Shown: piece by piece, positions 3,659 to 29,442 of the stretch
Layout: each line of letters opens with the position of its first letter
Position numbering within the stretch: the first letter of the stretch is position 1
DNA from: Deltaproteobacteria bacterium
GTDB lineage: Bacteria > Myxococcota > Myxococcia > Myxococcales > SZAS-1
Assembly (NCBI GenBank): GCA_018266075.1
Contig: JAFEBB010000048.1
Span: 1-58,604 of the forward strand
Direction of reading: 5' to 3'
DNA: 58,604 nucleotides
Position numbers and translations under genes: made by a program
The notes under the pieces: generated by a model
The model's database searches: none
What the model saw: only the letters and a program-made list of their open reading frames with translations
Told to the model about the DNA's origin: nothing

Positions 3659-4366
3659 ATGCAGGTCGCCGTGATCTCCGATCTCCACCTCGGCCCGGGC
3701 GACGCGTCCGACGCCTTCGGCCACAGCGACGCCGCGTTCTTGCGCTTCGCCGACTTCCTGGAGCGCAACTTCGAGCAGGTCATCCTCCTCGGCGACGTCT
3801 GGGAGACCATGACCAGCGCCTGCCCGGGCGATCTGCGCGGCGGGTTTCGCGCGGCCCAGCGCGCGCATCCCGAGATCGCGCGTCGCTTCGAGCGAAAGAC
3901 GTACCGCTACGTGCACGGCAACCACGACCTGGTCGCGGGCGCGCTCGGGCTCGCACCCGAGGAGCTGGTGCTCGATCTGCACGGCACGCGCTTCCTCTTC
4001 ACGCACGGCCACCACCACGACCTGCTCTTTCGGAAGGCGCGCTGGTTCGTGGAGCTCGGTGTTTGGCTGGGCGCGTGGCTGCAGCGGCTGCGGATGAGCG
4101 CGCTCACCTGGCCGTTCGCGAAGCTGGAGTCGCTCGCGTGTGGGCCGCTCGCGAACAGCGCGCGGTGCACGTTTCAGCGGTGGGCGATTGGCGCGGCTGA
4201 GCTGCGCAGCGCGGACGTGGTGGTCACGGGCCATACGCACTACGCCACGCGCGCGGAGCACGGCGGCCGGCTCTTCCTGAACAGCGGCTCGTGCGCGGGC
4301 GGGCAGTTCAGCTTCTTGAGCCTCGATACGCGCGCGGGACGATACGAGGTGAACCACGCGTGGTGA
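3659..4366 (+). CDS. Calcineurin-like metallophosphoesterase
   Basis: A 235-residue protein that shows the metallophosphoesterase motifs in order: SDLHLG (near residue 7), LGDVWE (about 43), GNHD (about 85), HGHHHD (about 118) and GHTHY (about 187). These supply the two-metal centre. The layout resembles UDP-2,3-diacylglucosamine hydrolase-like and cytosolic serine/threonine-type phosphoesterases, but the substrate cannot be assigned. The start at 3659 is preferred because GGAGG lies 6 bp upstream and MQVAVISDLH puts the first motif at the very N terminus; a longer in-frame start at 3596 has no ribosome site. The gene ends 6 bp from the convergent SAF gene. Confidence 0.85.
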   Translation: MQVAVISDLHLGPGDASDAFGHSDAAFLRFADFLERNFEQVILLGDVWETMTSACPGDLRGGFRAAQRAHPEIARRFERKTYRYVHGNHDLVAGALGLAPEELVLDLHGTRFLFTHGHHHDLLFRKARWFVELGVWLGAWLQRLRMSALTWPFAKLESLACGPLANSARCTFQRWAIGAAELRSADVVVTGHTHYATRAEHGGRLFLNSGSCAGGQFSFLSLDTRAGRYEVNHAW

Positions 4367-19256: not shown

Positions 19257-19660
19257 ATGACGCGCGTCCTCCTCACGATCCTCGCCTTCTCCCTCGCCGC
19301 GGCGCCCGCGCTCGGCGAGGAGAAGGAGGGCTTCAAGCTCATCAAGTCCAGCGAGCTGCAGAAGATGATGAAGACGCCGGGCAGCCGCGTGGCCGTCTAC
19401 GACGCGAACTGGGAAGGCATCCGCGAGAAGTGGGGGATGATCCCCGGAGCAAAGCCGCTCTCGAAGTTCGAGTTCGATGCGTCGAAGGAGCTGCCCGCCG
19501 ACAAGAGCACGCCGCTCGTCTTCTATTGCGGCAACCTGCACTGCACCGCGTCGCACCACGCGGCCGGCATCGCGACCAAGGCGGGCTTCACCGACGTGAG
19601 CGTGCTCTCCGACGGCATCATGGGCTGGGCGCGCTCGGGCAAGCCGGTCGTCCATCCGAA

Positions 19661-19664
<4 letters not shown>
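19257..19664 (+). CDS. Secreted rhodanese-like protein
   Basis: A 135-residue protein with a signal peptide (MTRVLLTILAFSLAAAPALG, cleaved near residue 20). The rhodanese fold is shown by VAVYDAN near the start, the active-site strand and loop LVFYCGNLHCTAS (candidate catalytic Cys), and the end segment VLSDGIMGWARSGKPV. Such periplasmic single-domain rhodaneses are thought to move sulfane sulfur or to act as redox sensors. The start at 19257 gives a good signal peptide; an earlier ATG at 19230 would add nine residues. Its stop overlaps the GTG of the helicase gene (GTGA). Confidence 0.8.
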
Positions 19665-21031
<1,367 letters not shown>

Positions 21032-22863: not shown

Positions 22864-24093
22864 ATGCTGACGGCGGATCTGCTGCGCGCGCGGCGTCGCG
22901 GCGATGAAGTTCGGCCACTCTGGGTCGACGCGGAGAGCCCCGCGGAGCAGGCGCGCGCGCAGGCCCTCGTGTCGCTGTTTCAAGCGCATGTGGGCCAGTC
23001 GCGCGGCGCGCTCGACGACGCCATCGCTGACCTCGTCGGCGAGGACACCGACTACCTGCTCCACCGCGGGCTGGCGAAGCTGCTCTTCGATCGCAGCGAG
23101 TTCGAGACGCAGTCGTCGCTGGATCCGGTTGAGCTGCGCCGGCGCGTCTTCGAGCGCGCGCGGGCGCACCACCCGGTGGCGCAGCACGCGGGCGATCCGC
23201 TGCATCCGACGACGCGCGCGCAGGTGCTGGCCGACGTGGCCGCCGAGCTGAAGCTGGACGCCTCGGATGTCGAGCGCGCGCTCTACGCCGACCTCGATCG
23301 GGAGCAGGTGCTCCAGACCTTCGAGCCCATCGACGCGAAGGCGCTCCTGCAGCGCTACGACGTGGCGCTCGCGCAGGCCATGCTGCTGCGCGCGAGCTCG
23401 GTGACCATCACCATCGCTCCAGGCGATCCCAAGCGCTACCGGCAGCTCTTTCGCTTCATCAAGTTCTACGGGCTCATCCACACGGCGACGGGCGATCGTC
23501 GGCGCGGCTACGAGGTCACGCTCGACGGGCCAATGAGCCTGTTCCAGCTCACGAGCAAGTACGGCCTCAAGCTCGCCGAGTTCTTGCCGGCGCTGCTGCT
23601 CTGTGAAGGCTGGACGCTCCGCGCGCGCGTGCTCTGGGGCAAGGAGCGGCGTCAGGCGAACTTCGAGCTCACCCCCGCGGCGGGGCTGCGCTCGCACTAT
23701 CCGGATCGCGGCGTGTACGTGACCGAAGAGGAGCGCGGGCTCGTCGAGCGCTTCGAGGCGCTGGAGTCGCCGTGGAAGATCGATCGGCGAACGGAGCTCG
23801 TGGATCTCGATGGCCAGGGCGTGCTGGTGCCGGATCTCGTCTTCAAGAATCGGGACGACGGCCGCGAGGCGCTGCTGGAGCTGGTCGGCTTCTGGCGAAA
23901 GGGCTACCTGGCGTCGCGGCTGGAGTTGTTGCGCGCGCACGGGCCGAAGAACCTGGTGCTCGCGGTGTCGAAGAAGCTCGCGGGCACGCGCGAGAAGCTC
24001 GGCGAGCTGCCCGGTGAGGTCGTCCTCTTCAGCGACGTGATCCGAGCCAAACAGGTGCTCGAGGCCGTCGAGCGCGTGGCCGTGCGGCCATAA
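22864..24093 (+). CDS. Bax1-like nuclease (DUF790), XPB partner
   Basis: A 409-residue protein of the DUF790/Bax1 family. The N-terminal helical part begins MLTADLLRARRRGDEVRPLWV, as in the family. The C-terminal nuclease core shows VPDLVF (about residue 322) and LLELVGFWRKGY (about 341), the D...E-x-V pattern of a PD-(D/E)XK site, followed by a KNLVLAVSKKLAGT strand. In archaea Bax1 binds XPB and cleaves beside DNA bubbles as part of a nucleotide-excision-like system. Here it starts 1 bp after the lipoprotein stop and has no evident ribosome site of its own. Confidence 0.88.
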   Translation: MLTADLLRARRRGDEVRPLWVDAESPAEQARAQALVSLFQAHVGQSRGALDDAIADLVGEDTDYLLHRGLAKLLFDRSEFETQSSLDPVELRRRVFERARAHHPVAQHAGDPLHPTTRAQVLADVAAELKLDASDVERALYADLDREQVLQTFEPIDAKALLQRYDVALAQAMLLRASSVTITIAPGDPKRYRQLFRFIKFYGLIHTATGDRRRGYEVTLDGPMSLFQLTSKYGLKLAEFLPALLLCEGWTLRARVLWGKERRQANFELTPAAGLRSHYPDRGVYVTEEERGLVERFEALESPWKIDRRTELVDLDGQGVLVPDLVFKNRDDGREALLELVGFWRKGYLASRLELLRAHGPKNLVLAVSKKLAGTREKLGELPGEVVLFSDVIRAKQVLEAVERVAVRP

Positions 24094-24101
24094 CCGTTCG
24101 G

Positions 24102-25691
24102 TTAATGCTTCGCCCTCTGCTGCTTGGCGATCTCGGCAGCGACGGTCTTCATCGCGTCGATGGGCCGCCGATCACCGGGCATCAGCTTCGACGCCTGGCG
24201 GTAGCTCGCGTCCGCGCGGTCGAGCCGGCCCGCCCAGTGGTGGATGTCGGCCATCACCAGCAACGTCTCGCCGTTCGCGGGCTCGATGCGCAGGGCCTCG
24301 TCGAGCTCGACCAGCGCTTGCTTCTCGCCGCCGCGCGGGTCGGCGAGGAAGCGCGCGTGCGCCAGCTTCACCTTGTACAGCACCTTGCGCGGATCGCACG
24401 CGGCCGCGAACTCCAGGAACTCGATGGCCGCGCGGTGATCGCCCGAGTTGATGCGCTTCATGCCCTCTTCGAACTGGCGCGGGCCGTCGAGCATGTCGGT
24501 CTTGATGCTGAAGTCTGTGCTGCGCTTGCGCGCCTGGATCTCCTTCGCCGACGCACGCCGCTTGAGGATCGCCGACTTCTGCTCGGGATCCATGAGCGCC
24601 ACGTACGCGCGCGCGCCCGCGAGGAAGAGATCGCGCGCCTTCTCCTGCAGCGCCGCGAGTTCTCCGTCCTTGAAGCGCCAGGGCGCGAACCGCTCGCTCC
24701 ACATCATGAACGCCTCGCGCACCTCGGCGCTCGACGACTGCTCGTGCAACTCGAAGAGCTCGAGCGCGTCGCGCGTGCGGTAGCTCAGGTAGGCCGCCGT
24801 CACGTCATTGCGGAGCTTCTCCATCTCGTCGGCGCTCGGCGCGCGCGAGGTGACAGCCGCCGACGAGGCTGGCGCAGCCGCTGGCGCAGCCGCGGGCGCA
24901 GCCACCGGCGCAGCGACAGGCGCCGGCGCGGGCTTCTCCTCGGGCACCTGGCTCGCCGCGGCCACGTAGCCCAGCACGTGCAGCGCGTAGAGCTTGCGGA
25001 GCAATTCCTCCGGACTGAGGTCGAGCAGCGCCACGAGCAGGTCCAGCTTGGGGCGCTTCTTCAGCTCTTGCATGATCCGCGCGTCCTTCGCGGGCAGCTT
25101 GAGCGCGGTCAGCGGGTGCGGCGGCTTGGGAACGAGCGCGAGCGCCACGCTCGACAGCTCGCGCGTGCGGAGCTCAGCCTCCGCGAGCGGCGAGAACGTC
25201 GACGCGCCGGTGAACACCAGCTGCGGCAGGTTCACGCGCAGGGGCTGCTTCACCTCGGGCGCCTCGGGCAGGACCTTGAAGCTCGCGTTGGCCCACGTGT
25301 CGCAGAAGCAGTCGAGCAGCTTGTGCGCGAGGTTCTGCTGCAGCAGCTTGAAGAGCTCGAACGGCTGGATGAGCTGCAGCCGAAGCAGCGTCTGCTCGAT
25401 GCGCTCGTCGGTGATGACCGATTCGTTCAGCGCCTTTTGATACGAGGCCTCGTCGAGCTTGCCCTTCTCCACGAGGAAGCGGCCGGGTGTCTCGTGGAGC
25501 AGGTTCGACTCGCAGTCCACGGGCAGGCCGTCCTCGAGCGCGATGCGCTTCACGAACTGACGCGCCTTGAGCTCGATCGTCGCGGTCCGCTCGGCGGCGA
25601 AGAGCGCCTGGAGCAGCACGGGAAACGGCGTCTGCGCGAGGCTGCCCTGGTGCGCCTTGCCGAGCTCCTGCAGTTCCTTGTTGTCGATCAT
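24102..25691 (-). CDS. DUF4388 - J-like - TPR protein
   Basis: A 529-residue cytoplasmic protein. The N-terminal region (about 1-110) has the DUF4388 (PATAN-type) pattern, with SLAQTPFPVLLQALFAAE and TATIELKA. Residues ~225-280 are an Ala/Pro linker. A small helical J-like domain follows (ALELFELHEQSSSAEVREAFM with a trailing WSERFAP), and TPR-type helices fill the C terminus (LVMADIHHWAGRLDRADASYRQASKL). Such proteins act as myxobacterial gliding/signalling scaffolds. The ATG at 25691 overlaps the stop of the upstream MEMO-like gene as ATGA. The longer frame to 25724 lies inside that gene. Confidence 0.8.
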   Translation of the reverse strand: MIDNKELQELGKAHQGSLAQTPFPVLLQALFAAERTATIELKARQFVKRIALEDGLPVDCESNLLHETPGRFLVEKGKLDEASYQKALNESVITDERIEQTLLRLQLIQPFELFKLLQQNLAHKLLDCFCDTWANASFKVLPEAPEVKQPLRVNLPQLVFTGASTFSPLAEAELRTRELSSVALALVPKPPHPLTALKLPAKDARIMQELKKRPKLDLLVALLDLSPEELLRKLYALHVLGYVAAASQVPEEKPAPAPVAAPVAAPAAAPAAAPASSAAVTSRAPSADEMEKLRNDVTAAYLSYRTRDALELFELHEQSSSAEVREAFMMWSERFAPWRFKDGELAALQEKARDLFLAGARAYVALMDPEQKSAILKRRASAKEIQARKRSTDFSIKTDMLDGPRQFEEGMKRINSGDHRAAIEFLEFAAACDPRKVLYKVKLAHARFLADPRGGEKQALVELDEALRIEPANGETLLVMADIHHWAGRLDRADASYRQASKLMPGDRRPIDAMKTVAAEIAKQQRAKH

Positions 25692-26566
25692 GGCTGGACC
25701 TCGACGAGCGCGCCGGCGACCCACGTCGGATCCGGGGCGCCGAGCACGTCGCCGTAGGGCACGAGCTCACACGCGTGGATCGTGTACCGCGAGAACGGCC
25801 GCAACTCCATCAGCACCGGGCCGACGTCGCGGAAGTCGCTGCGCTCGGCGAGCGTGTGGGCCTGGAAGTCGGCGTAGCGGCGCTCGCTCAGGAGTTGGAA
25901 GCTCTTCTCAATCGACGCCCGCGCCTTAACGACTGTGTCATGGGATTCGCGCGGCATGCAGCGGTCGACCGGCGTCTCGTAGCCGCGGCCGTGGTGGATG
26001 GGATCGGTGGTCGCGACCACGGGCATGCGGTCCCGCTCGCGCCCCAAAGCCATGCCGGTGAACCCGAAGTCGGCGTTCTCCGCCACGTCGAGAAACCCGA
26101 CCGGATCGTCGCCGACGAGAAACGGGTACCACTTCATGACCTTCGGAGCCGGACGACCAGAGCGAGCGGCCGCGCGCTCGAGCAGCGCTTCGAAGCCATC
26201 GAGCGAGAACTCTTCGACCCAGTGGCGACCCGACGCATATGGCCCATGCATTCGCCGCAAAGCCTTCCGTGCGGTGGCATCCCCAGCACGCGCTGCTTCG
26301 ACCTGCTCCCGATCCTGTTCTCGAGCCCCGTGCAACACACCGAGCGCACGAACCGTGGGCGCGCCGCTCTCGACGACGGCGCGCGCCACCGCAGCCACGA
26401 GCTCGCCCGTGTGCGACAGCCGCGTGTGCGGAAAGACGAGCGCGCCGTTCTCCGGCAGCTTCACCTTCGGCGCCTTCTCGAAGAGCGCGTCCAGGCCGCG
26501 CTCGCCCAGCGCGATGCGCTCGTTGGCGTAGAAGGCCTTCCACTGCTTCGCCGTCAGCGTGGGCAC
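25688..26566 (-). CDS. Divergent MEMO-like protein
   Basis: A 292-residue protein with the MEMO (UPF0103, 'AmmeMemoRadiSam B') order: VFPHTRLSHTGELVAAVA corresponds to the APHAGYxYSG strand, ALGVLHG to the ILGPxH region, WYPFLVGDD to PVLVG, VVATTDPIHHGRGY to VxSSDFxHxG, and WVAGALVEV to the terminal YAAGAL. Two of the usual metal-ligand His positions are kept (in FPHT and DPIHHG); the LGPSHH one is altered to LHGAR. No AMMECR1 or radical-SAM partner is present. A GTG start is used. Divergent by 32 bp from the AAA+/RF2 fusion gene and coupled (ATGA) to the DUF4388 gene. The alignment is by eye. Confidence 0.6.
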   Translation of the reverse strand: MPTLTAKQWKAFYANERIALGERGLDALFEKAPKVKLPENGALVFPHTRLSHTGELVAAVARAVVESGAPTVRALGVLHGAREQDREQVEAARAGDATARKALRRMHGPYASGRHWVEEFSLDGFEALLERAAARSGRPAPKVMKWYPFLVGDDPVGFLDVAENADFGFTGMALGRERDRMPVVATTDPIHHGRGYETPVDRCMPRESHDTVVKARASIEKSFQLLSERRYADFQAHTLAERSDFRDVGPVLMELRPFSRYTIHACELVPYGDVLGAPDPTWVAGALVEVQP

Positions 26567-26598
26567 AACCAGAGCCTACCGCGTATCATGCCGGCGCC

Positions 26599-29442
26599 AT
26601 GGCCAAGAAGAAGCACAAGGGTGGGAGTAAGGACGAACTGCAGAAGCTCGTCGAGCGCGACCTCACCGCGCTCGCCCGCGACGGCAAGCTCGGCGCCGCG
26701 CACGGCCTGGACCAGGCGTGCGCCGAAGTCGTCGCGCTGCTCGAGCAGAACCGCAAGGCGCCGCTCCTCGCCGGCGATCCCGGCGTGGGCAAGAGCGCCA
26801 TCGTCACCGAGATCGCGCGCCGCATCGCGACAGGCATGGTGGGCGAGAAGCTCGCCAAGGCGCGCATCCTCGAGGTGCCTGTGGCCGGCATCTTCGCGCG
26901 CACCGCGAACCCCAAGCAGGCCGCGGAGCTCTTCGAAGAGCTCTTCGAGCACTTCGCTGAAGTGCCCGACACCATCGTCTACATCCGCGACATCGCGCTC
27001 ATTCAGGGCACCACCCTCGCGCCCGTGCTCATTCGCACGCTGCGCACGGGCCGGCTGCGCTTCGTCTTCGAGGCCGAGCTGCGCCACGCGCAAAATCTCT
27101 TGCGCAGCGACGAGACGCTCGCCGAGCGCGCGCACCTCTTGATGGTCTCGGAGCCGAGCCTGGAGCGCTCGCGGTGGATCCTGGGACGCGTGGCCGAGGA
27201 GCTCGAGGGCGAGCTCGACATCGCCATCGACCCCACCGCGTGCGACATGGCGCTGCGGCTCTCTGCGCGCTTCCTGCTCGCGCGACGCTTGCCGCGCAAG
27301 GCGCTCGAGCTCTTGCGCGAGGCCGCGAGCGAGGCGGCCGGTGCGAGCCGCGAGCGCCTCGGCCCCGAGGACGTGCTCTCGCGCTTCTGCACGGCCACGC
27401 GCCTGCCCCGCTTCGTGGTCGACGACGGCATCCCGCTCGATCTCGCGGAGACGGAGCGCTTCTTCGGCGAGCGCATCCTCGGCCAGGGCGACGCGGTGAG
27501 CGCGGTGCTGCGCTCGGTGGCGCTGCTCAAGGCGGGCCTGAACGATCCGCGTCGGCCGCTGGGCGCGTTCCTGTTCGCCGGTCCCACCGGCGTGGGCAAG
27601 ACGCACCTCGCGAAGCTGCTCGCCGAGTACCTCTTCGGCGCGGCGGATCGTCTGGTGCGGCTGAACATGGCCGACTACCCGGACAACGGCGACGAGACCG
27701 GCATCTTCGGCTACCAGTGGGGCAACACGCTCGACCAGAAGCGCGGCGAGCTCACGCGCCTGCTCGACGGCAAGGCGTTCGCGGTGCTGCTCCTCGACGA
27801 GTTCGAGAAGGCCTCCAGCGCCTGCCACGACCGCTTCCTGCAGCTCTTCGACGAAGGCCGCTTCATCAACGCCGCCGGCGAGACCGTGCCCTGCAACAAC
27901 GTGCTCATCGTGGCCACGAGCAACGTGGGCGCCGACGTGTACCGCGAGCCCCCCATCGGCTTCTCCGGCACCCGCACGCGGAGTGAAATCATCTCCGAGG
28001 TCGATCGCCGCATCGCCGAGGCGTTCCGCGCCGAGTTCCTCAACCGCTTCGACGCCATCTGTCACTTCCACCCGCTGGGCAAGGTGGAGATCCGAAAGAT
28101 CGCCCAGCGTGAGGTCGGTCGCGTGCTCGAACGCGAGGGCATCCGCGCGCGCGGGCTCGACGTGGAGGTCGCGCCCGCGGTCATCGACCTGCTCGTGGAG
28201 CGCGGCTACTCGCCCTCCTTCGGCGCGCGCTTCCTGCAGCGCGAGATCGAGAAGACGCTCACCAGCGCGCTGGCCGTGGAGATCGCGCGCAAGCCGCTGC
28301 CCGCAGGCACGCACGTGACCGTGGTCGCGCGGACCGCTGGACGCGTCGTCGCGCACGTGGAGTCGCGGGCCACGCCGGCTCCGGCCACCGCAAAGGTGTC
28401 GCTGCCTGCGGCGGGCGCGGCCGTGTCGCGGCGGCGCCTCTCGCGCGATGAGCTCGTGGGTCAGTCGCGCGGCTTGCTGCGTCGCGCGGAGACGCTCGCT
28501 GTCGCCGCGGGCAAGGCCGAGCTCGAGTCGCGGCGCTCGCAGCTGTTGGCGGAGTCGCAGGCGCCCGGCTTCTGGGACGACCCGGATAGTGCGGCCGAGA
28601 CGCTGCGTCGCTTCCGCGCCGTCGAGGCGCAGCTGGCGGATCTCGATCGTCTGGTGAAGTCGTGCCAGTTCGCGCAGCGGCGCGCGCTCGAGGCCAAGAC
28701 CGAGGCCCAGCTCGCGGCGGCCGGACGCGCCGTGGAAGAGGCCGCGCGCGAGGTGCAGCTCACCGAGGCGCGCACGGCTGCGGGGAGCACGGGCGAGGTC
28801 GACGAGGCCATGGTCGAGGTGGTCGCCGCCGGTGACACCACCGCGCACGGCGCGTGGGTCGCCGAGCTGGTGCACATGTACCTCTCGTGGGGCGAGCGGC
28901 GCGGCTATGACGCGCGCGCCGTCGCCGAGGGCACGGGCCCCGTGAGCGCCATCTTGCGCGTGAGCGGCCCGGGCGTGCTGGGCTTCCTCGCGGGTGAGGC
29001 GGGCCTGCACCGCCGCATCGACGAAGAGAGCCGGCTGGGCGCGTTCGTGCGCGTGCACCGGGCGACGTCGAGCGCGCCCGAGGGCATGGAGATCGACGTG
29101 CGAGAGGTGAAGCGTCGCCCGGGCACGTTCGTGGAGCGCGTGGGTTGTGAAGGCGTGGTGCGCGACGAGCGTCGCGGACGCGCGGTCTCACTCGCGGGCG
29201 GCGAGGGCACGGACGCACTTGCTGCCGTCGGCGGCACGATGCTCGCGGCGGACGCGATGCCGGATCATGAAGCGCGGCGCTACCACCTCGGTCGCGGTGC
29301 GCGAGTGGAAGATCCGCGCACCGGTGCGGGCACGCCGCGCTGGAAGGACGTGCTCCGCGGAGAGCTCGATCTCTTCATCGCCGCGTGGCTCGCGCGGCCG
29401 CCGGCGGGTGATGGCGCGGCGACATTGCACGAGATCGCGTAG
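26599..29442 (+). CDS. Double AAA+ ATPase fused to a GGQ-less release factor 2-like module
   Basis: A single 947-residue frame. D1 has Walker A GDPGVGKS (59-66) but a degenerate Walker B (TIVYIRDIALI, 125-135). D2, of the ClpA/ClpB type, is complete: GPTGVGKT (328-335), LLLDEFEK (397-404), sensor-1 ATSNVG, FLNRFDAI, and a C-terminal SFGARFLQREIEK. There is no Clp N-domain or ClpB middle domain. From about residue 614 the protein matches RF2: a coiled-coil with FWDDP (658), then AGDTTAHGAWVAELVHMYLSW in place of [28 protein letters not shown] for ETGVHR, and DPRTGAGTP...VLRGELDLFI near the end. The GGQ of RF2 is replaced (near GCEG) and the SPF codon-recognition motif is absent. A non-catalytic ribosome-binding role is inferred; ATP-driven action on ribosomes or nascent chains is possible. 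No ribosome site is visible before the ATG. Confidence 0.85.
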   Translation: MAKKKHKGGSKDELQKLVERDLTALARDGKLGAAHGLDQACAEVVALLEQNRKAPLLAGDPGVGKSAIVTEIARRIATGMVGEKLAKARILEVPVAGIFARTANPKQAAELFEELFEHFAEVPDTIVYIRDIALIQGTTLAPVLIRTLRTGRLRFVFEAELRHAQNLLRSDETLAERAHLLMVSEPSLERSRWILGRVAEELEGELDIAIDPTACDMALRLSARFLLARRLPRKALELLREAASEAAGASRERLGPEDVLSRFCTATRLPRFVVDDGIPLDLAETERFFGERILGQGDAVSAVLRSVALLKAGLNDPRRPLGAFLFAGPTGVGKTHLAKLLAEYLFGAADRLVRLNMADYPDNGDETGIFGYQWGNTLDQKRGELTRLLDGKAFAVLLLDEFEKASSACHDRFLQLFDEGRFINAAGETVPCNNVLIVATSNVGADVYREPPIGFSGTRTRSEIISEVDRRIAEAFRAEFLNRFDAICHFHPLGKVEIRKIAQREVGRVLEREGIRARGLDVEVAPAVIDLLVERGYSPSFGARFLQREIEKTLTSALAVEIARKPLPAGTHVTVVARTAGRVVAHVESRATPAPATAKVSLPAAGAAVSRRRLSRDELVGQSRGLLRRAETLAVAAGKAELESRRSQLLAESQAPGFWDDPDSAAETLRRFRAVEAQLADLDRLVKSCQFAQRRALEAKTEAQLAAAGRAVEEAAREVQLTEARTAAGSTGEVDEAMVEVVAAGDTTAHGAWVAELVHMYLSWGERRGYDARAVAEGTGPVSAILRVSGPGVLGFLAGEAGLHRRIDEESRLGAFVRVHRATSSAPEGMEIDVREVKRRPGTFVERVGCEGVVRDERRGRAVSLAGGEGTDALAAVGGTMLAADAMPDHEARRYHLGRGARVEDPRTGAGTPRWKDVLRGELDLFIAAWLARPPAGDGAATLHEIA

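Follow-up and report, generated by a model that had tools for sequence, protein, structure and literature searches.

Balon lacks the codon-reading and GGQ motifs of release factors yet binds the ribosomal A site (PMC10901736), Dom34/Pelota is described as an inactive release-factor relative that acts at stalled ribosomes (PMC6514570), and plant chloroplast PrfB3, which has lost both SPF and GGQ, is reported to prefer the petB 3' untranslated region (UTR; PMC5897788). The release-factor-like Vms1 acts with the AAA+ ATPase Cdc48 (PMC5989216, PMC6514570). A survey of release-factor families covers, within the bacterial type, release factors 1 and 2 (RF1/2), ArfB, prfH and eukaryotic derivatives (PMC6514570); the words "Clp", "myxobacter" and "deltaproteobacter" are missing from its main text, and two of its three "AAA+" passages concern CDC48. 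Among the Clp ATPases, ClpA is described as gripping its substrate by aromatic pore-1 loops, KYR in the first AAA+ domain (D1) and GYVG in the second (D2) (PMC9663308), the AGF tripeptide of Staphylococcus aureus ClpC (residues 671-673) docks ClpP, its mutation abolishing the interaction (PMC12521514), and a count for Myxococcus xanthus DK1622 gives eight copies of clpA/B/C, with clpB and clpC cited as affecting development (PMC11423568). Here we describe a gene that brings a Clp-type motor and a release factor together in one protein: at positions 26599-29442 of a 58,604-nucleotide stretch of DNA (the window: contig JAFEBB010000048.1 of GenBank assembly GCA_018266075.1, a deltaproteobacterium of the order Myxococcales), a tandem AAA+ ATPase is fused to a module derived from RF2. 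A full-text literature search, whose scope leaves out most subscription papers and preprints, returned no recognisable paper on an AAA+/RF2 fusion, in agreement with a preliminary description of this DNA that knew of no system built on this plan.

The gene is a single unbroken frame with its ATG at 26599 and its stop codon at 29440-29442. A mechanical list of open reading frames (ORFs) puts the start of the frame upstream, at 26239; the start codons of relatives, chosen by script as the start nearest the match, coincide with the column aligned with the 26599 ATG or lie no more than a few residues from it. The AAA+ pair occupies residues 11-590 and the RF2 fold residues ~616-936. Pfam recognises AAA_lid_9 (190-249), AAA_2 (319-487, 1.7e-29), ClpB_D2-small (493-575, 1.2e-13) and PCRF (643-805, 9.2e-13) in the window protein, and the ClpA profile covers residues 7-575 in one stretch. 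The preliminary description had proposed a continuous 947-residue frame joining a Clp-type AAA+ pair to an RF2 derivative, and this is borne out by Pfam, by the fold match and by conservation; the PCRF profile that it looked for in the C-terminal part is there, and the motifs that it quoted lie at residues 658-662 (FWDDP), 800-805 (EAGLHR) and 905-909 (DPRTG). The features of the gene are listed below, with counts taken from an alignment (A3) of 39 rows, the window protein and 38 full-length members of 47 related loci, the other nine loci being partial or split.

26599-29442, forward strand: whole gene, AAA+ pair fused to an RF2-derived module, 947 amino acids
26632-27156, forward strand: D1 large AAA+ domain, residues 12-186
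26773-26796, forward strand: D1 Walker A, GxxGVGK[ST], kept in 39/39
26986-26991, forward strand: D1 Walker B position, D-E replaced by R130-D131 in 39/39, as aligned to ClpC and ClpB
27157-27393, forward strand: D1 lid, residues 187-265, with AAA_lid_9 at 190-249
27448-28059, forward strand: D2 large AAA+ domain, residues 284-487, with AAA_2 at 319-487
27580-27603, forward strand: D2 Walker A, GPTGVGKT, 39/39
27688-27753, forward strand: D2 pore-loop region, residues 364-385, GYVG absent, Trp374 (27718-27720) invariant
27784-27801, forward strand: D2 Walker B, VLLLDE, 39/39 (a regular-expression count gives 38, row L096 having alanine in the hydrophobic run)
27955-27963, forward strand: PhiGF tripeptide I453-G454-F455, aligned with the AGF by which S. 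aureus ClpC docks ClpP
28060-28368, forward strand: D2 small domain, residues 488-590
28369-28443, forward strand: linker, residues 591-615, two predicted strands
28444-28782, forward strand: RF domain-1-like helical part, residues 616-728, with FWDDP at 658-662
28783-29076, forward strand: RF domain-2-like part, residues 729-826, GAGGTE and SPF loop lost, ExGxHRR (800-806) in 39/39
29077-29268, forward strand: RF domain-3-like part, reduced in size (residues 827-890), with its GGQ loop deleted and identity lower than in the other eight regions measured
29269-29406, forward strand: RF domain-4-like part, residues 891-936, with DPRTG, conserved better than the rest of the RF module

The fusion is conserved well beyond the window. 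A scan of the phylum at E<=1e-100 gave a strong match, one per genome, in 84 of 195 genomes including the window's own; 83 of these carriers belong to one family (f3) and the remaining carrier, the window's own genome, to another (f1). Full-length fusion matches at 62-66% identity occur in 15 of the 59 other near genomes. The boundary between the AAA+ and RF parts, which the preliminary description had marked for comparison in homologues, is crossed by 82 of the 84 best matches, and the other two (G136 and G142) stop near residue 600. The G142 match lies at a contig edge, beginning at base 8 on the minus strand. In G136 (locus L140, G136:C1:3000000-3008000) the frame changes at the junction, near 4135, with both halves otherwise readable, and this is either a sequencing error or a real split. 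Five further matches (G090, G091, G102, G119 and G123) are incomplete at one end, and three marked with TGA merely overrun their natural stop. Re-examination with the RF half of 13 f3 genomes that have no strong match found two with an RF end near a contig edge, one with the RF half only and ten with at most ordinary release-factor-like matches.

Two short C-terminal patterns, RVEDPRTG[AE] and D[VL]FIAAW[IL], which can miss distant relatives, were run against a collection of genomes that is described as spanning 84,980 species, and yielded 106 stretches and 47 relatives, whose record titles name Myxococcus, Corallococcus, Pyxidicoccus, Archangium, Hyalangium, Citreicoccus, Myxococcaceae, Archangiaceae and Myxococcales; M. 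xanthus itself carries the fusion (locus L093, strain AM003). One record, BNCN01000002.1 (L092), is titled "Comamonas sp. KCTC 72670" and has the myxobacterial fusion gene, its label probably being wrong. Viral contigs gave 12 pattern matches with zero relatives among them and plasmids gave no relatives at E 1e-50, and a phage or plasmid origin was rejected on these results.

An assembly error, a frameshift artefact or a pseudogene could be suspected from the frame change at the junction in G136, from the genome with the RF half only (L103) and from locus L079, which is split within D1. Against this stand the full-length ORFs from 38 of 47 loci, the best matches that span the junction, the conservation across the phylum and a median ratio of nonsynonymous to synonymous substitution (dN/dS) below 1 in every region measured (Nei-Gojobori medians over up to 733 pairs, which are not independent). 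Conservation in the 84 genomes and the 38 full-length loci rejects an assembly error or chance ORF, and with it the frameshift or assembly fault that the preliminary description had raised is excluded; an explanation of this kind has next to no probability.

The C-terminal module has kept the fold of RF2. PCRF is matched in all 39 members, and a PDB sequence search with the C-terminal part found E. coli RF2 (2.5e-15, plus a weak second C-terminal piece). Modelled alone, the module reached a mean predicted local distance difference test (pLDDT) of 80.4 and a predicted template modelling score (pTM) of 0.66, and the model matched E. coli RF2 1gqe with Z 20.4 (root-mean-square deviation 4.3 Å over 307 residues), followed by RF1/RF2 chains near Z 17 and PrfH near 10; the fold search lists in its rows 1-46 chains of RF1/RF2-type factors, from bacteria or mitochondria, and of PrfH, and Foldseek concurs on the RF2 fold (best E 9.6e-15). 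With the NCBIfam models the RF half scores 72.7 bits for prfB against 18.9 for prfA, the prfB cut-off of 370 not being reached.

Both motifs that the preliminary description gave as missing, GGQ and SPF, are indeed lost, and this holds in all 39 members. GGQ is found at its RF2 position in none of them (GGQ strings stand elsewhere, in the linker near residue 606 in three members, one of which has another at 886), and SP[FYW] in none of the RF halves, the loop being deleted in an alignment with seven true RF2s from the own and related genomes, which served as our reference for RF2 conservation. With the threshold relaxed as far as E 10, the Pfam RF-1 domain still finds no match in the RF half of the window protein. 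The GAGGTE element, which takes part in stop-codon reading, is absent from its RF2 place in 39/39, a stray GAGG string in one member sitting in the domain-3-like part, and the switch-loop region is missing from the fusion in the same RF2 alignment. What has been kept alongside the fold is FWDD, with W659 invariant, and ExGxHRR and DPRTG, both in 39/39. Pairs of members are on average 68% identical in domain 1, 66% in domain 2 and 84% in domain 4, against 52% in the domain-3-like part, and median dN/dS is 0.40 in domains 1 and 2, 0.66 in domain 3 and 0.12 in domain 4; selection is thus largely off the former catalytic domain and still on domain 4. Because fold and identity are kept and domain 4 is so constrained, the module appears to be selected for something other than release. 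Its net charge (median -1, range -6 to 5) is uninformative on RNA binding, since the true RF2s, which bind ribosomes, themselves range from -14 to -2. Shortening the switch loop is reported to slow peptide release by RF1, which the authors link to the change from the compact to the extended form (PMC6561943), so the RF module, lacking that loop, may be locked in the compact form; its model, a prediction, fits compact RF2 best.

In the motor, the two nucleotide sites have fared differently. D1 keeps its Walker A and has RD for DE at Walker B in every member, so that the preliminary description was right to call this site broken; at least two Walker B DE motifs are present in 16 of 17 Clp paralogues of the own and related genomes, the exception being L025. 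These 17 paralogues (14 loci from the near-genome search and three from the own genome) served as the control set. D2 keeps its arginine finger FRxEFLNR and sensor-2 GAR in 39/39 as well as both Walker motifs, and its median dN/dS is 0.22. The D1 pore-1 loop K[YF]RG is found in 0/39; a near-identical pattern, K[YF][RK]G, occurs in just 9 of the 17 paralogues, and the loss is for that reason not distinctive. Torsins, a Clp relative without pore loops, offer a possible comparison. Only about 11 residues precede D1; Pfam found no Clp N-domain (Clp_N) in the window protein at E 0.01, and the 25 families matched by the 39 members do not include it either. The D1 lid ends at ~265 and D2 starts at ~284, which leaves no room for a ClpB middle domain.

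D2 also carries a PhiGF loop, which is the strongest functional lead that the preliminary description lacked. A tripeptide of the form [ILMV]GF stands at this place in all 39 members, and G454-F455 align residue for residue with G672-F673 of S. aureus ClpC. These two residues do not vary, whilst positions 451-453 and 456-458 take 4 to 9 residues each. The docking motif is present in 14 of the 17 Clp paralogues and missing from three ClpB-like ones (L026, L028 and L141), and ClpP is matched strongly at two places in the own genome and weakly at a third. By its sequence, then, the PhiGF loop is a putative ClpP docking site. The own genome's third Clp paralogue (L143, G000:C9:49000-54500) is ClpC-like, with an MGF loop and a long branch (1.67) in the AAA tree.

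With the fusion, its fold and conservation and its lost and retained motifs established, we tentatively favour a ClpP-capable, D2-driven motor that is aimed by a dead RF2 and removes or degrades protein at ribosomes. The protein would form a hexamer, by precedent of the Clp/Hsp100 family, in which D2 alone hydrolyses ATP, D1 having degenerated into a ring of mainly structural function. Since a Clp N-domain is not detectable and a ClpB middle domain would not fit, the usual adaptor sites would be missing, and targeting would most likely be supplied by the RF2-derived module, predicted to be unable either to read stop codons or to cleave peptidyl-tRNA. The compact pseudo-RF2 would then be a ribosome-facing tether and the PhiGF loop would dock ClpP, the most likely job being ATP-driven removal, or degradation by ClpP, of protein at translating, stalled or resting ribosomes. 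The hexamer, the docking of ClpP and the targeting role of the module are inferred; that its target is the ribosome is a guess from homology, backed by the precedents of Balon, Dom34 and Vms1-Cdc48. The interpretation in the preliminary description is partly supported: its domain plan, its two lost release-factor motifs and its degenerate D1 hold, and occupation of the A site by the RF part and a role in ribosome rescue, splitting or nascent-chain extraction are hypotheses. The candidate ClpP-docking motif, the missing Clp N-domain match and the loss of GYVG, of the switch loop and of GAGGTE are new.

Several results weigh against this reading. The D2 pore-1 loop GYVG is present in 0/39 members and in 17/17 of the control paralogues, which speaks against ordinary threading into ClpP and weakens the case for ATP-driven extraction. 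Trp374 is invariant and flanked by variable residues in a loop modelled with low confidence (364-383, pLDDT <50), and it may compensate, a changed grip on the substrate through Trp374 in place of GYVG being possible. The PhiGF loop might merely have been left over from descent from ClpA/ClpC. Of the 154 columns conserved in the true RF2s only 28 are kept in the fusion, most of the RF module is under moderate selection (median dN/dS 0.41 vs. 0.22 for D2), and the whole-chain model (pTM 0.50) leaves the placement of the RF module against the ring undefined. RF1, RF2 and transfer-messenger RNA (tmRNA) are all in the own genome, with the true RF1 and RF2 elsewhere, and matches to the RF-1 domain mostly number three in the order's carriers and non-carriers alike, as judged by eye. 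None of the ten window ORFs around the gene was matched in 44 related loci, some of which have short flanks. The loss of most RF2-conserved residues, together with this unsupportive neighbourhood, weakens ribosome targeting; given the precedent of Balon, binding of the A site by the RF module is still conceivable.

One locus also tells against the favoured motor: at L103:6786-10846 (JADGRA010000047.1, matched also in G118:C77 and G195:C77) the RF half stands without the AAA+ pair. It is ~50% identical, keeps DPRTG and lies between xerC and hslV-hslU, with a short fusion-like start just upstream in another frame. The position beside hslV-hslU is striking and might point to a connection with a different AAA+ protease. 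The arrangement may equally be a relic, a deletion or a misassembly, and it comes from a single metagenome-assembled genome, the lone case among the loci compared.

Other functions are open to the same protein. The dead RF2 may have become a protein- or RNA-binding module without any link to the ribosome, much as in PrfB3, with the ring remodelling some other substrate. The codon-reading and catalytic elements are gone, the best conserved piece of the module is domain 4 and not the former active sites, and PrfB3 of land plants, without SPF and GGQ, is described as having become mRNA-stabilising and as binding the petB 3' UTR (PMC5897788). Balon, however, binds the A site despite a comparable loss of motifs (PMC10901736), and our data suggest no RNA or protein partner except possibly ClpP; we regard this as a possible explanation, if a somewhat doubtful one. 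Where the ribosome is kept as the target, the favoured motor could take a more specific form, that of a myxobacterial ribosome quality-control protease whose pseudo-RF2 heads would enter the A site of ribosomes that are stalled or at rest, without releasing the chain, and pass ribosome-bound protein to ClpP, which at present is speculative and rather doubtful. A hibernation or protection factor, in which pseudo-RF2 blocks the A site while ribosomes rest and is put in place or taken out by the ATPase, would be useful in sporulating organisms and would parallel Balon in function (PMC10901736). A shortened switch loop, in the presence of blasticidin S, keeps ribosome-bound RF1 in its compact form, and the suggestion has been made that factors in this form enter the A site whatever the state of the decoding centre (PMC6561943); the module described here has no switch loop and is modelled nearest to compact RF2. 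The compact form chosen by AlphaFold is nevertheless no proof for the cell, no stress or sporulation context was found, and such a role would leave the ClpP-docking motif idle; we consider hibernation unlikely.

It is also conceivable that the RF2 module is a structural appendage for ring assembly or solubility with no targeting role. The drift of the domain-3-like sequence (52% mean pairwise identity, median dN/dS 0.66) is what such a part might show, but domain 4 averages 84% identity, ExGxHRR and DPRTG are invariant and Clp relatives assemble without any such module, so that we think this distinctly unlikely. An active rescue or release factor equipped with an ATPase could be read from the overall RF2 fold, and is nearly refuted by sequence: the GGQ loop is deleted, the RF-1 domain finds no match at E 10, and SPF and GAGGTE are present in 0/39. 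This candidate was rejected for its motif losses and is highly improbable.

The surroundings of the gene were also searched for associations. The neighbour most widely shared elsewhere is an HNH gene, upstream of the fusion in 16 of 27 loci; with the window neighbours unshared and the HNH gene judged uninformative, an argument from operon structure was dropped. Replacement of ArfB, RF1 or RF2 was likewise set aside, the counts of RF-1 domains showing no clear difference between carriers and non-carriers, and membership of a defence system was rejected, the PADLOC hits of the window protein being confined to its AAA parts. A divergent ORF at 25688-26566 on the minus strand has no Pfam match, and 32 bases (26566-26599) separate its first codon from that of the fusion; if both are genes, their promoters would overlap. 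Further upstream, a helicase of XPB type that includes an XPB damage-recognition domain (19430-21031, forward strand) and a DUF790 protein (22864-24093, forward strand) are separated by one ORF; DUF790 is Bax1, the nuclease partner of XPB.

Compared with known systems, the motor half is closest to ClpA and ClpC. It shares with them the tandem Clp-type AAA+ pair, the intact D2 ATPase motifs and the PhiGF loop, and with ClpA the lack of a ClpB-type middle domain; residues 7-591 match ClpC, ClpA, ClpB and Hsp104 chains in fold (Z 24-31), and the nearest sequences of solved structure are ClpC and ClpB. It differs from ClpA and ClpC in the absence of a Clp N-domain match, the loss of D1 Walker B, the absence of GYVG and the added RF2 module. 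The fusion stays far below the NCBIfam cut-offs for ClpA (286 bits vs. 993) and for ClpB (301.8 bits vs. 1232), whose middle coiled-coil it does not have. In the AAA tree nine fusion rows form one isolated clade (100/100) whose stem measures 3.2 changes per column, and because of this stem and the long branches we claim no sister for the pair. Whatever its exact role, the fusion is a conserved and testable addition to myxobacterial Clp biology that is present in the laboratory organism M. xanthus.

Set beside RF2 (prfB), the other half of the fusion has the complete fold, as modelled, and differs in lacking GGQ, SPF, GAGGTE and the switch loop and in being joined to an AAA+ pair. PrfB3 is likewise an RF2 relative without SPF and GGQ, and the passages on it make no mention of an AAA+ domain (PMC5897788); if the module of the fusion no longer finds the ribosome, the protein is a clear example of an essential translation factor whose copy has lost both active sites and been turned to targeting. 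If it still does, the fusion would be a one-protein link from the translation machinery to an AAA+ motor in bacteria. Balon, with its comparable motif loss, is of the aeRF1 lineage and not of RF2, and an ATPase domain is not mentioned in what is described of it (PMC10901736). Dom34/Pelota has the aeRF1 fold, is archaeo-eukaryotic and, by the account given of it, is loaded by a GTPase in eukaryotes. Vms1 has an eRF1 fold, keeps its catalytic Gln and is described as bound to Cdc48 through a short motif rather than by fusion; should the quality-control protease prove true, the myxobacterial protein would be a bacterial counterpart, in one piece, of the Vms1-Cdc48 partnership.

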